Source: Loktanella sp. SALINAS62
GTDB lineage: Bacteria > Pseudomonadota > Alphaproteobacteria > Rhodobacterales > Rhodobacteraceae
DNA: 64,000 nucleotides
Direction of reading: 5' to 3'
Assembly: GCF_018263905.1 (NCBI RefSeq)
Contig: NZ_JAAFZU010000055.1
Span: 323,673-387,672, forward strand
How positions within the stretch are numbered: position 1 is the stretch's first letter; each line of letters begins with the position of its first letter. This document shows, one piece after another, positions 22,980 through 33,586 of this stretch. The notes below the pieces were generated by a model, which saw only the letters and a list, made by a program, of their open reading frames with translations, was not told the DNA's origin and made no database searches. The position numbers and the translations under genes are program-made.

Positions 22980-24053
22980 TCAGGCCATGCCACCGTCGAT
23001 GAAACGCTGCGCAAGCGCGGCATAGGCATCGGCGACCGGGCCTTCACCCGCCGCAATCGGAACGCCGGCGTCACCGGACACGCGGGTTTGCAGATCAATC
23101 GGAAGCGCACCTAGGAATGGCAGCCCCAGCGCCTCTGCCTCGTCGGCGACACCGCCGTGGCCGAAAATCTGGGTTTCCTCGCCACAATGCGGGCAATGAA
23201 AGGTGCTCATATTCTCGATCAGGCCAAGAATTGGCGTTTTGAGTGTGTTGAACATGTCCATCGCCTTGCGGGCATCCAGCAGGGCCACGTCCTGCGGCGT
23301 GCTGACGATCACGGCCCCGGTCAACGCGGTCTTTTGCGCCAGCGTCAATTGCACGTCGCCCGTCCCCGGTGGCAGGTCGATGATCAGAACGTCGAGTTCG
23401 CCCCATTCCACCTGTCCTAGCATCTGCTGCAATGCGCCCATCAACATGGGTCCGCGCCAGACCACGGCCTTGGCCGGGTCGACCATCAGGCCAATGGACA
23501 TCATGGTGACGCCATGTGCCTGCAGCGGCACGATACGTTTCCCATCGGGACTGCCGGGTCGCTGGTTCACGCCCATCATGCGCGGCTGGCTGGGGCCATA
23601 GATATCGGCATCCAGCAGACCGACCCGCCGCCCTGCCCGCGCCAGTGCCACGGCCAGATTCGACGACACCGTCGATTTGCCAACGCCACCCTTGCCCGAA
23701 CCAATCGCAAGGATCCGGTCCACCCCCGCGACACGTTCCGGACCGGCCTGCGGGGTCGGATGACGCCCGACCTTTAGACTGGGCGGTTCCGGTTTCGCTG
23801 CGGGCGCACTATGGGCCGTCAAGACGGCGGAGACAGCTTCAACGTCGCCAAGCGCCCGGATCACATCCACCGCTGCGGCGCGTACCGGTTCCATACGTGC
23901 GGCCGTGGCGGCATCCGGTGCTTCGATCACAAAACGGACCTGTCCACCGTCCACCGTCAACGCGCGGATCATGTCGCGCGACACAAGATCGCCCCCGTCA
24001 GGCAGGCCCACGCGAGACAGCTCTGCCATGATCATGTTCTTGTCCAACGCCAT
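22980..24053 (-). CDS. mrp: Mrp/ApbC iron-sulfur cluster carrier ATPase
   Basis: MinD/NBP35-type ATPase that carries and delivers Fe-S clusters in the cytoplasm. The 357-residue product has an N-terminal DUF59/MIP18-like domain (residues 5-80). A Pro/Ala linker follows, then the deviant Walker [10 protein letters not shown] at 120-128, [14 protein letters not shown], and [20 protein letters not shown]-terminal CPHC pair in [13 protein letters not shown] serves as the cluster site. Length and order match ApbC. It is transcribed away from the ccaF1-like gene, which shares the 228-base region on its 5' side. Confidence 0.95.
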
Positions 24054-24170: not shown

Positions 24171-24185
24171 TGCTGCATAGCAGCA
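24171..24185. repeat. Short palindrome between mrp and the ccaF1-like gene
   Basis: TGCTGC-ATA-GCAGCA is a perfect inverted repeat in the divergent promoter region. It could be an operator for one of the flanking genes; the regulator is unknown. Confidence 0.35.
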
Positions 24186-24200
24186 TTGACGAGACAGCTA

Positions 24201-24228
24201 TTGTGCAACTGCAGCATGATCCTAGATA
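24201..24228 (+). promoter_or_regulatory. Candidate promoter of the ccaF1-like/hairpin transcript
   Basis: TTGTGC (24201-24206) and TAGATA (24223-24228) are spaced by 16 bases, 54 bases before the ccaF1 start. The R. sphaeroides counterpart is driven by the stress sigma factors RpoHI/RpoHII; I cannot tell by eye whether this site is of that type or a sigma-70 type. Confidence 0.4.
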
Positions 24229-24281: not shown

Positions 24282-24491
24282 ATGGCATACACGAATACGA
24301 ACACCGCACCGACGCTGAACCAGCGCTTTGCAGGTATGCGCGCACAAATCGCCGAAGCAGCTGCAAAGCGCCGTGTCTACCGCACGACGTTGACCGAACT
24401 TTCAGCGCTCAGCAACCGCGAACTTGCCGATCTGGGCATTGCCCGGTCGATGATCAAGGGTATCGCGATAGAAGCCGCATACGGCAAATGA
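24282..24491 (+). CDS. ccaF1: CcaF1-like DUF1127 small RNA-binding protein
   Basis: A 69-residue basic protein with the DUF1127 core: RRVYRTTLTELSALSNRELADLGI near residues 30-53, then a conserved end IAIEAAYGK. In Rhodobacter sphaeroides the DUF1127 protein CcaF1 (RSP_6037) binds RNA, takes part in maturation of the CcsR small RNAs and affects RNA turnover. Its gene is co-transcribed with them under heat-shock-type sigma factors. Here the same gene order is seen: the stop at 24491 lies ten bases before the first of eleven CCTCCTCCC hairpins. The ATG at 24282 was chosen because it gives the family N-terminus MAYTNTN and follows GAGAGCA; in-frame codons upstream lack homology. The symbol is given by synteny and similarity. 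Confidence 0.92.
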   Translation: MAYTNTNTAPTLNQRFAGMRAQIAEAAAKRRVYRTTLTELSALSNRELADLGIARSMIKGIAIEAAYGK

Positions 24492-24500
24492 ATTCCAATC

Positions 24501-24534
24501 GGGTCCTTATCAACCTCCTCCCTGATACGGACCT
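24501..24534 (+). ncRNA. Cuckoo hairpin 1
   Basis: Arms GTCC-t-TATCA (24503-24512) and TGATA-c-GGAC (24523-24532) pair with one T-C mismatch, and an outer G-C pair extends the stem. The loop is A plus CCTCCTCCC (24514-24522). Confidence 0.8.
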
Positions 24535-24538
24535 GACC

Positions 24539-24571
24539 GCGCAGCCTGCTACCTCCTCCCGGCGGGCGCGC
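24539..24571 (+). ncRNA. Cuckoo hairpin 2
   Basis: GCGC-(a)-GCCTGC pairs with GCGGGC-GCGC, one bulged A and one G-U pair. This is the most GC-rich stem; the motif is at 24552-24560. Confidence 0.8.
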
Positions 24572-24585
24572 ACATGACAAAGCGG

Positions 24586-24623
24586 CGGCTCTGACCGACC
24601 TCCTCCCCGTGTTGGGGTCGCCG
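24586..24623 (+). ncRNA. Cuckoo hairpin 3
   Basis: CGGC and GACC on the left pair with GGTC and GCCG on the right, with a three-base bulge. A competing stem, CCCC(24605-24608)/GGGG(24614-24617), would hide part of the motif (24599-24607), so this unit may behave differently. Confidence 0.65.
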
Positions 24624-24642
24624 TTTTGAACAGATGCGAATA

Positions 24643-24673
24643 CGGACGCTGCACCTCCTCCCGCGGTGGTCCG
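24643..24673 (+). ncRNA. Cuckoo hairpin 4
   Basis: CGGAC-GCTGC pairs with GCGGT-(g)-GTCCG; the motif is at 24654-24662. It belongs to a 37-base block nearly identical to unit 8. Confidence 0.8.
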
Positions 24674-24680
24674 TTGATAA

Positions 24681-24718
24681 CCGGAACGATGGCTACCTCC
24701 TCCCAGCCGGACTTTCGG
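24681..24718 (+). ncRNA. Cuckoo hairpin 5
   Basis: Short inner stem GGCT/AGCC (24691-24694, 24705-24708) with an outer CCG/CGG clamp across an internal loop. Motif at 24696-24704. It is among the weakest stems of the array. Confidence 0.65.
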
Positions 24719-24725
24719 GAAAGAC

Positions 24726-24762
24726 CAGGGTTTGCCCCGCCTCCTCCCGGCGGATGAACCTG
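24726..24762 (+). ncRNA. Cuckoo hairpin 6
   Basis: Outer CAGG/CCTG plus TT/AA and an inner GCC/GGC-type pairing flank the motif at 24740-24748. It is the only copy preceded by G instead of A. Confidence 0.6.
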
Positions 24763-24770
24763 ACTAACAG

Positions 24771-24802
24771 CGGTGGTGGTCACCTCCTCCCGGCCACCAC
24801 CG
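24771..24802 (+). ncRNA. Cuckoo hairpin 7
   Basis: Perfect 9-bp stem CGGTGGTGG / CCACCACCG with the motif at 24783-24791 in the loop. Confidence 0.85.
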
Positions 24803-24819
24803 CGCCAAGAATTCGAATA

Positions 24820-24850
24820 CGGACACTGCACCTCCTCCCGCGGTGGTCCG
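24820..24850 (+). ncRNA. Cuckoo hairpin 8
   Basis: CGGAC-ACTGC pairs with GCGGT-(g)-GTCCG; the motif is at 24831-24839. It differs from unit 4 by a single G-to-A change over 37 bases. Confidence 0.8.
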
Positions 24851-24854
24851 CATA

Positions 24855-24889
24855 GCCGGCTCTTCCTACCTCCTCCCAGGGGGACCGGC
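24855..24889 (+). ncRNA. Cuckoo hairpin 9
   Basis: GCCGG(c)TCTTCCT pairs with AGGGGGA-CCGGC using two U-G pairs and a bulged C. Motif at 24869-24877. Confidence 0.75.
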
Positions 24890-24894
24890 ACTGG

Positions 24895-24925
24895 CGCAGA
24901 CCCGACCTCCTCCCCGAGGTTTGCG
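24895..24925 (+). ncRNA. Cuckoo hairpin 10
   Basis: CGCAGACC pairs with GGTTTGCG over eight bases with one G-U pair. Motif at 24906-24914. Confidence 0.8.
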
Positions 24926-24934
24926 TTCATAACG

Positions 24935-24973
24935 AAAGGCGATGCGCACCTCCTCCCGCGCATCGCCTTTTTT
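24935..24973 (+). terminator. Cuckoo hairpin 11 doubling as Rho-independent terminator
   Basis: Perfect 13-bp stem AAAGGCGATGCGC / GCGCATCGCCTTT, followed by T-tract 24968-24973. The loop is A plus CCTCCTCCC (24949-24957). The end of the transcript thus carries an eleventh functional motif inside its terminator. Confidence 0.9.
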
Positions 24974-24991
24974 GTTTTCGCGGGGGATGGG

Positions 24992-25444
24992 TCAGGCGCG
25001 CAGGTCTTTGGGGCTTCCCATGACCATATAGCTGGTGATCGACCGGACATGCGGCACGGTGCCCAGCGTTTCGGTGTGAAACAGCTTGTAGGCGGGCAGA
25101 TCCGCGACTTCGACCCGCAGCATGTATTCGAACGCGCCAGCGACGTTGTGACATTCCACGACATCTTGCGCCCGGTCCATTGCACGTTCGAACCCCTGCT
25201 GTGCGGCTTTGGTGTGTTCGGCAAGTCCGACCGCTACATAAACCACAAAACCACGCCCCGTTTGCACCGGATCAAGCCGGGCGCGATAGCCGCGGATGAC
25301 GCCGCGCCGTTCCAGTTCCTGAACGCGGCGCAGACAGGCGGACGGCGACAACCCGACGCGGTCGGCCAGTTCCAGATTGCTGATCCGGCCATCACAGGCC
25401 AGCAGACGCAATATTTCAGCGTTTATACGATCTTGTTCATTCAT
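24992..25444 (-). CDS. Lrp/AsnC family transcriptional regulator
   Basis: A 150-residue feast/famine regulator. The N-terminal AsnC-type winged helix spans residues 4-60 (ILRLLACDGRISNLELADRVGLSPSACLRRVQELERRGVI), and a RAM ligand-binding domain follows (VVECHNVAGAFEYMLRVEVADLPAYKLFHTETLG). Such proteins usually sense an amino acid. It is divergent from a LysE-type exporter gene with 71 bases between starts, the classic arrangement in which the Lrp protein controls the exporter. The ATG at 25444 gives the standard family start MNEQDRIN; codons upstream are not conserved. Confidence 0.93.
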   Translation of the reverse strand: MNEQDRINAEILRLLACDGRISNLELADRVGLSPSACLRRVQELERRGVIRGYRARLDPVQTGRGFVVYVAVGLAEHTKAAQQGFERAMDRAQDVVECHNVAGAFEYMLRVEVADLPAYKLFHTETLGTVPHVRSITSYMVMGSPKDLRA

Positions 25445-25515
25445 AATTGCGAAAGTAGGCAGTTTTACACCATCTTCGCAATTTATATCCACGCAGGGCA
25501 CGATATACCGGCGCG

Positions 25516-26115
25516 ATGGATACCCTCACACTTCTTTTATTGTTCCAATTCGCCTTCGTCAGTTCGATCACACCCGGTCCGAACAACCTGATGCTGATGG
25601 CATCCGGCGCAAACTATGGCTTTCGGCGGTCGCTGCCACATATGTGCGGGATCAGTCTGGGCCATTCGTTCATGGTAGTAATGATCGGGCTGGCCCTGCT
25701 GCGCGTGTTCGATGCGTTCCCCGTCCTGAACACCCTGCTGACCGTCGTGGCGGTGATCTACATGACATGGCTGTCGTGGAAGATCGCAACCGCCGTCCCG
25801 CCAGAGGCACGTCAGGTCACGGGCAAACCATTCACGTTCTGGCAGGCAGCGGCATTCCAATGGGTCAACCCAAAGGCATGGGTCATGGCGATCACTGCCA
25901 TCACGGCGTTTGCGCCGCAGGATCGTGCGGTCTGGGTCGGATCGCTGATCGTGGCGGGCGTGTTTTTATTGTCCAACTTTCCAGCAATTACCGTCTGGAC
26001 GGCACTTGGCGTCCAGTTGCGCCGCTATCTGGGCACCGCACGGCGATTGCGCGTGTTCAACATCACGATGGCCGTGTTGCTGATGGCGTCGCTGGTGCCG
26101 ATGGTATGGCATTAA
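25516..26115 (+). CDS. LysE/RhtB family amino acid exporter
   Basis: Six-helix inner-membrane exporter of 199 residues. It has the family start LLLFQFAFVSSITPGPNNLMLMASGANYGFRRSLPHMCGISLGH (residues 7-50), where the Pro-Gly-Pro-Asn segment is characteristic. LSWKIA and FQWVNPKAWVMAITAI follow. Members export Lys, Arg, Thr, homoserine or similar; the substrate here is unknown. The Lrp-type regulator directly upstream on the other strand is the likely activator. Its stop overlaps the uvrD stop tail to tail by four bases. Confidence 0.92.
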   Translation: MDTLTLLLLFQFAFVSSITPGPNNLMLMASGANYGFRRSLPHMCGISLGHSFMVVMIGLALLRVFDAFPVLNTLLTVVAVIYMTWLSWKIATAVPPEARQVTGKPFTFWQAAAFQWVNPKAWVMAITAITAFAPQDRAVWVGSLIVAGVFLLSNFPAITVWTALGVQLRRYLGTARRLRVFNITMAVLLMASLVPMVWH

Positions 26116-33417: not shown

Positions 33418-33492
33418 GCGGGCGTAGCTCAGGGGTAGAGCATAACCTTGCCAAGGTTAGGGTCGAGAGTTCGAATCTCTTCGCCCGCTCCA
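33418..33492 (+). tRNA. tRNA-Gly (anticodon GCC), copy 1
   Basis: 75 bases including an encoded CCA. Acceptor GCGGGCG/CGCCCGC, D-arm with AGCTC...GAGC, anticodon stem CCTTGCCAAGG region with anticodon GCC, T-loop TTCGAAT. Copy 2 is identical and starts 19 bases later. Confidence 0.97.
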
Positions 33493-33511
33493 TCAAGTGA
33501 CGATCTGGTGC

Positions 33512-33586
33512 GCGGGCGTAGCTCAGGGGTAGAGCATAACCTTGCCAAGGTTAGGGTCGAGAGTTCGAATCTCTTCGCCCGCTCCA
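33512..33586 (+). tRNA. tRNA-Gly (anticodon GCC), copy 2
   Basis: Identical to copy 1 over all 75 bases, including CCA. The two share one upstream region and one terminator, so they are probably one transcript. Confidence 0.97.

Follow-up and report, generated by a model that had tools for sequence, protein, structure and literature searches.

The window analysed here, a stretch of 64,000 nucleotides from Loktanella sp. SALINAS62, carries at 24282..24491 on the forward strand a ccaF1-like gene for a DUF1127 protein of 69 aa (PF06568, 1.4e-12), followed by a tandem array of hairpins built around the motif CCTCCTCCC. The genes next to the array encode an Mrp/NUBPL-type ATPase (22980-24053, reverse strand), an Lrp/AsnC regulator (24992-25501, reverse strand) and a LysE-type exporter (25516-26115, forward strand). 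Elsewhere in the window, at 33418-33583, two equally scoring tRNA genes, perhaps duplicates, have starts separated by 94 bases. The first motif begins 25 nt past the end of the DUF1127 protein match, and a short DUF1127 gene thus lies directly upstream of the array, a neighbour that is also described for the CIN1 locus in the available text of PMC10253847. Among the named loci compared, the best DUF1127 matches are those of the Loktanella MAG L150 and Cognatiyoonia sediminum L100, at 86.7 bits each.

An exact count over both strands of the window found CCTCCTCCC eleven times at 24514-24957, always on the forward strand (starts at 24514, 24552, 24599, 24654, 24696, 24740, 24783, 24831, 24869, 24906 and 24949), and nowhere else; chance would supply approximately 0.5 copies per window (mean 0.47, maximum 4, in 100 dinucleotide shuffles). 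Genome-wide there are 16 exact copies (13 forward, 3 reverse), eleven of them in this array. The start-to-start spacings are 38, 47, 55, 42, 44, 43, 48, 38, 37 and 43, with a mean of 43.5. An earlier reading of the sequence alone had reported eleven exact motifs, a mean spacing of about 43 bases and flanking arms that differ in sequence while keeping their pairing, and all three observations hold, the last by the folding and covariation results given below.

All eleven loops consist of the same nine bases, with the conserved loop CCUCCUCCC exact in each, and every unit closes round its own loop when folded singly (-11.0 to -24.7 kcal/mol, mean -17.6). Three hairpins, all on the forward strand like the rest, are the strongest: hairpin 3 (24582..24624, -24.0 kcal/mol), after which comes the largest spacing, 55; hairpin 7 (24770..24803, -24.7 kcal/mol); and hairpin 11 (24934..24977, -24.2 kcal/mol), the last unit, whose stem runs into a T-run and which is likely a Rho-independent terminator, although a simple terminator scan with a loop limit of 8 did not list it. 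The others range from -11.0 to -18.8 kcal/mol. These are hairpins 1 (24499..24536, -16.9), 2 (24539..24571, -18.8), 4 (24642..24674, -14.5), which is a near-copy of hairpin 8 (similarity score 25), 5 (24681..24718, -12.6), 6 (24726..24762, -11.0 alone, the weakest), 8 (24820..24850, -13.8), 9 (24855..24889, -18.1) and 10 (24893..24927, -15.2 alone). When all 485 nt are folded together, the minimum-energy structure retains nine of the eleven hairpins, 6 and 10 being displaced by other pairings.

The pairing of the arms is specific to each unit. When left and right arms were swapped between units (n=110), the mean energy was -6.9 kcal/mol, compared to -17.6 for own arms, and the true partner arm ranked first of 11 for eight units and second for three. 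It is the means and ranks that separate real from swapped units; a threshold of -6 kcal/mol does so poorly, being passed by 482 of 488 real units and 1015 of 1290 swaps. In the alignment of the eleven units, 72.0% of cells are paired (47.5% when shuffled) and the covariation score is 0.721, against 0.255 for shuffled alignments, none of 500 reaching the observed value, and 0.402 for the best slid control. All 12 pairs are changed on both sides, a less telling figure, as shuffled alignments average 9.6 and 19 of 500 reach 12. Fold stability relative to shuffles is strand-specific (z -6.70 on the forward strand, -1.03 on the reverse).

The covariance search that the sequence-only reading had called for was run with a model trained on 70 hairpins from other genomes, selected because they fold well and share one loop geometry; the window and the congener G006 contributed none, and the possibly close Loktanella MAG L150 contributed one. 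The model found nine of the eleven units, eight of them with E<0.001 and the ninth with E 0.041; hairpins 6 and 9 were missed. At genome scale, with 150 of 354 first-look candidates scored, four units reached E<=0.001, all within the array, and of the five single motif copies outside it one gave a match, of 10.5 bits (E 1.3). The recovery of nine units by an independent model, together with the PF06568 gene upstream, supports the earlier assignment of the locus as a cuckoo or CcsR-type array following a DUF1127 gene.

Among Rfam families, αr14 (RF02344) matches at 24850-24973, over hairpins 9-11, with 72.2 bits against a threshold of 58.8, which it exceeds there only; it falls below the threshold over hairpins 1-3 (42.0 bits) and 4-6 (23.7 bits). 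CcsR1 (RF02791) gives five two-hairpin matches (E 2.7e-05 to 2.6), the best of 29.5 bits falling short of the gathering threshold of 65.3, and αr7 gives two sub-threshold matches (best 31.3, threshold 60).

The closest known system is the CcaF1-CcsR1-4 operon of R. sphaeroides (RF02791), for which the available text of PMC10253847 describes a DUF1127 gene, tandem CCUCCUCCC hairpins and a terminal terminator, as in the window. The spacing differs: at CcsR-type loci most hairpin pairs have an internal spacing of 37-44, and the distance from one pair to the next is mostly about 59-92, whereas in the window spacings of 37-55 run throughout and the strong hairpins stand at positions 3, 7 and 11. 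The αr14 sRNAs (RF02344; NfeR1 and SmelA075 of Sinorhizobium meliloti) and the four-hairpin SmelA099 are reported to carry, per RNA, three or four hairpins with the loop found in the window, and in the available descriptions they are single RNAs (PMC3927594, PMC10746234), in contrast to eleven hairpins in one array after a DUF1127 gene. The cuckoo RNA family as a whole shares the conserved loop and free stems; the available text of PMC4504443 describes it with 2-4 hairpins, compared to arrays of 2-26 counted in the window and its relatives, and to the eleven of the window itself, with predicted RNAs of 3, 4 and 4 hairpins.

The claim that the array is far larger than the known four, in contrast, is not supported, both because it mixes units and because other genomes of the family hold arrays of 11-26 hairpins. 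With two hairpins in each of its four RNAs, the CcsR1-4 set amounts to approximately eight hairpins, since the Rfam CcsR1 model contains two CCUCCUCCC hairpins and the R. sphaeroides RNA RS0680a is likewise described as two stem loops (PMC3927594, available text). A layout that R. sphaeroides, itself outside the compared set, should resemble is found in genome G111, which has four matches to CcsR1 and eight motifs arranged pairwise. Close motif pairs, one or more per genome, occur in 296 of 394 family genomes (about one genome per genus), and the sizes among 50 distinct family arrays counted include 26, 20, 17, 16, 15, 14 (in three arrays), 12 (in two) and 11 (in four arrays besides the window); twelve CcsR1 loci have 6-14 motifs each. 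Richness in motif pairs was part of the reason for choosing these loci, which are therefore not a random sample. The eleven hairpins of the window are thus large in number and not exceptional, and the array is a real one of a known kind, short of record size. The longest array counted (L013 / L243) has 26 hairpins after a DUF1127 gene and consists mostly of a repeated three-hairpin block. Counting single motifs per genome was rejected as a measure of array size, as matches to the reversed pattern were equally many in many GC-rich genomes.

A scan of named genomes returned at least 120 motif stretches; among the named matches listed, at least seven motifs occur in Paracoccus, Thalassovita, Falsirhodobacter, Sulfitobacter, Yoonia, Loktanella and Phaeovulum, and a few listed stretches (Streptomyces, Lachnospiraceae, Hungatella) are probably chance repeats. 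The link to DUF1127 is nearly general: 49 of 51 distinct non-viral arrays with at least six motifs, window included, have a same-strand DUF1127 match upstream, and one of the two that lack it (L167) is a short repeat of six motifs, none of which folds. In Yoonia litorea (L099), a seven-motif array has no DUF1127 match detected upstream. Among viral sequences, 57 contigs (L180-L236) carry at least three motifs each at array-like spacing; of the 32 distinct viral arrays, 24 have three motifs, and none has a DUF1127 match upstream. They are perhaps αr14-like RNAs on prophages of rhizobia. In two contigs, L186 and L206, the motif recurs every 18 bases and forms a simple repeat, not hairpins.

The distribution of similar hairpins, defined by a score of at least 20 and compared over 48 arrays of at least six hairpins, points to how such arrays are built. 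Similar hairpins are rare as neighbours (4 of 434 adjacent pairs, against a mean of 33.7 and a minimum of 20 in 300 order shuffles), common at distances of two (34/386), three (47/338), four (48/290) and six (44/194), and scarce at distance five (5/242); the arrays are related to one another and a few long ones give many of the pairs. Because likeness is rare between neighbours and frequent two to four units apart, arrays appear to grow by blocks of two to four hairpins. In the congener G006, whose array has 15 hairpins, window hairpins 1, 2, 3, 7 and 11 find their best partners in hairpins 1, 2, 3, 7 and 15, in colinear order (score 18 for hairpin 7), and hairpins 5, 6, 9 and 10 have no clear partner there. 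Hairpins 6 and 7 of G006 are repeated as its 10 and 11, so that the two arrays are probably one four-hairpin block apart.

Fold energy, taken as hairpin strength, was then related to the gaps on either side in 44 arrays with DUF1127. Strength correlates positively with the following gap (mean rho +0.59; 41 of 44 arrays have a positive value) and negatively with the preceding one (mean rho -0.43; 6 of 44 have a positive value), whereas longer stems alone would shift both correlations the same way. One array, L041, is clearly opposite (rho -0.85), and the window's own correlation is moderate (rho 0.41 for the following gap, -0.21 for the preceding). With strong hairpins 3, 7 and 11 placed before long gaps, the array is predicted to yield RNA A (hairpins 1-3), RNA B (hairpins 4-7) and RNA C (hairpins 8-11), ending in those hairpins; products of 3-4 hairpins, roughly 130-165 nt, would fit the anatomy better than discrete species of 35-50 nt.

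Upstream of the DUF1127 gene lies a conserved promoter-like block. In the window it starts with a putative PhaR-type operator CTGCATAGCAG (24173..24183, forward strand), an exact match to CTGCNNNGCAG, which the available texts give as the PhaR site of R. sphaeroides (PMC12542648, PMC3206438) and which occurs three times in the window, operator included. It continues with the element ATTGTGCAACTGCAGCA (24200..24216, forward strand), composed of ATTG at the likely -35 position and TGCA-N2-YGCAGCA, and ends with a possible -10 element CCTAGAT (24221..24227, forward strand), 18 bases past ATTG. The same order recurs before the DUF1127 start of relatives, where in 27 of 28 cases ATTGTGCANNYGCAGCA starts 27 or 28 bases after CTGCATRGCNGCATTG; a -10-like stretch comes next, often CCCATGTT or CCTAT, and several relatives have CCCATGTT or a similar sequence there. 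Over 62 upstream regions, each comprising the 130 bases before a rule-chosen start codon and Rhizobiales loci included, CTGCNNNGCAG is exact in 19 (shuffled 0.1), the first element CTGCATRGCNGCATTG is present with up to three mismatches in 30 (shuffled 0.05), the second with up to two mismatches in 43 (shuffled 0.0) and both in 28; the second element was seen at none of the Rhizobiales loci among the 62. ATTGTGCANNYGCAGCA is exact at all twelve CcsR1 loci and in 273 of 394 family genomes, with the reversed control seen in one genome. Of 30 places with ATTGTGCANNYGCAGCA, 23 have DUF1127 downstream, 23 have an array, and 26 have at least one of the two; two of the remaining four precede genes read by eye as a putative pyruvate carboxylase (L285) and a malyl-CoA-lyase-like protein (L267). 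A sigma-70 promoter scan gave no match at the locus, and the ATTG-N18-CTAGAT arrangement plausibly fits an RpoH-type promoter.

Several observations favor a role for PhaR at this promoter. The genome encodes phaR (TIGR01848, 149.8 bits, above the cut-off), its own phaP promoter has two exact CTGCNNNGCAG sites, and the array has a CTGCNNNGCAG operator in its promoter region, so that operator and regulator occur together. Within the first element, TGCATAGCAGCA matches 11 of 12 letters of the B. diazoefficiens PhaR consensus TGCRNYGCASMA (PMC6201568, available text). The only other exact ATTGTGCANNYGCAGCA in the genome (L256, 1501-1517) stands 14 bases ahead of the start of a gene for 3-hydroxybutyrate dehydrogenase and is oriented opposite to it. 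PhaR-regulated phaP promoters share the CTGCNNNGCAG operator with the array promoter, and those of S. meliloti and B. diazoefficiens are reported to have a pair of PhaR sites close to the -35 region or on both sides of it (PMC12542648, PMC6201568). Against this reading, the second element has one extra base between its halves (TGCA-N2-YGCA) relative to the PhaR consensus, and no link to polyhydroxybutyrate genes was seen at three of the six GCTGCANNGCAGCA places in the genome (L260, L261, L262). The spacing of the sites differs too: a spacing equal to that of phaP was considered and rejected on counting, with centres 26 apart at the genome's own phaP and about 30 at the array promoter. Together, the operator and ATTGTGCANNYGCAGCA are suggestive of control by polyhydroxybutyrate status besides stress. 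A 52-aa ORF behind a PhaR-like site elsewhere (L266, 1501-1514) looked DUF1127-like by eye and was discarded, as Pfam and direct comparison gave no match.

Ribosome-binding sites are the predicted targets of the loops. Sites of the form GGAGGAG-N4-10-ATG number 23 in the genome, compared to 5 for the reversed pattern; 20 of the 23 genes were scanned, the others being L318 and two with questionable or very small frames, L313 and L315. Nine of the 20 encode ABC or TRAP uptake components (L297, L298, L299, L300, L306, L309, L310, L311 and L319), a share that is suggestive only. Solute-binding genes often have strong ribosome sites. The nine-base complement in the form GGGAGGAGG-N3-11-ATG has no match in the genome, so any loop-mRNA pairing must involve fewer than nine bases. 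The uptake-rich list resembles that of NfeR1, whose candidate targets are reported to be mostly ABC transporters and which silences ntrBC by pairing of its anti-Shine-Dalgarno motifs at the translation start; its three motifs are described as redundant (PMC10746234, available text). The suggestion in the sequence-only reading that the target range has expanded is therefore unsupported, given the same nine bases in every loop and the reported redundancy of the NfeR1 motifs. With identical loops it is dose rather than target range that would change, and each transcript may deliver more dose.

The sequence itself establishes the operon layout, the hairpins with their identical loops, the block structure, the placing of strong hairpins ahead of long gaps and the conserved operator-like sites. 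The best explanation, which we consider likely, is a stress operon of DUF1127-cuckoo (CIN1) type whose transcript is processed into RNAs that block ribosome sites. One transcript would comprise the message for a small CcaF1-like RNA-binding protein and a 3' region with eleven anti-Shine-Dalgarno CCUCCUCCC hairpins, presumably transcribed from an RpoH-type promoter that probably also answers to PhaR, the polyhydroxybutyrate sensor. RNase E, assisted by the DUF1127 protein, may cleave the longer linkers that follow strong hairpins 3 and 7. The result would be three RNAs with 3, 4 and 4 hairpins, and the strong hairpin at the end of each would shield the new 3' end. The loops would pair with GGAGG-type ribosome sites and lower translation; the genes affected probably include those for nutrient uptake and carbon. 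Several identical loops per RNA and more than one RNA per transcript would set the dose. For R. sphaeroides, the available texts report an RpoHI/RpoHII promoter, processing by RNase E and CcaF1, and effects on C1 and pyruvate metabolism (PMC10253847, PMC8625941, PMC7866481, PMC8307010), as well as destabilisation by PNPase and dependence on Hfq.

The eleven hairpins might instead be excised singly, yielding eleven RNAs of 35-50 nt and making the array a simple dose multiplier, the picture of the sequence-only reading, as the similar unit lengths and spacings and the identical loops would allow; this is improbable, as the gaps are uneven, with the long ones following strong hairpins family-wide, and the described relatives are RNAs of two, three or four hairpins (PMC4504443, available text). 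We give an equally low rating to an unprocessed array acting as a sponge that sequesters the DUF1127 protein, Hfq or a further RNA-binding protein, or else sRNAs whose seed is rich in G. One transcript does hold many identical loops together with a gene whose product probably binds RNA, and CcaF1 is reported to affect many RNAs and bind some (PMC10253847); the CcsR RNAs, however, are reportedly processed and target flhR mRNA (PMC8307010, PMC8625941).

Slightly less probable still is a general brake on translation, in which the loops mimic the 3' end of 16S rRNA and reduce initiation at all strong ribosome sites. The tail of 16S rRNA contains CCUCC, as does the loop, and arrays reach up to 26 loops. 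A large regulon is moreover predicted for NfeR1 (PMC10746234, available text), but such a brake would need RNA amounts high enough to compete with ribosomes, and the available portions of the reports describe no global effect. That the array acts other than as RNA, whether as a repeated protein, a DNA-binding array or mobile palindromes, is very improbable: an open frame on the reverse strand does span it (24454-25224), yet the motif spacings fit no constant reading frame, G-U pairs and strand-specific folding are present, the four genome-scale model matches (150 of 354 candidates scored) all fall in the array, and long arrays lie downstream of a same-strand DUF1127 match in 49 of 51 cases.

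Beyond the processed stress operon itself, we tentatively propose a broader reading that we hold slightly more apt to be wrong than right: these arrays may be modular, block-grown cassettes in which block size (2-4 hairpins, the last strong) would set RNA valency and block number the dose, neighbouring stems would differ as a guard against mispairing and, in the Rhodobacteraceae, PhaR acting on an RpoH-type promoter would let polyhydroxybutyrate and stress set the silencing of uptake and pyruvate genes. The cuckoo RNA family is credited to Reinkensmeier and Giegerich (2015). No description of block growth, of the strong-hairpin/long-gap rule or of the promoter link was found in the literature available, and earlier notice of block structure, of the promoter element or of long arrays is possible in the 2015 cuckoo, 2021 CcaF1 and 2015 CcsR papers; searches on PhaR with DUF1127, PhaR with small RNA, long anti-Shine-Dalgarno arrays and cuckoo with CIN1 found nothing relevant.

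Taken together, these results set the comparison right, with hairpins rather than RNAs as the unit and with arrays of this kind reaching 26. The strong-hairpin rule offers a simple predictor of the RNAs made by each array, and the occurrence of arrays of 2 to 26 hairpins in nature makes valency and dose directly testable. Should the PhaR link be borne out, it would connect carbon storage with a stress sRNA system already known, and the reported effects of CcsR on pyruvate dehydrogenase (PMC8625941) and the reported PhaR site at pdhA (PMC6201568) could belong to one circuit.
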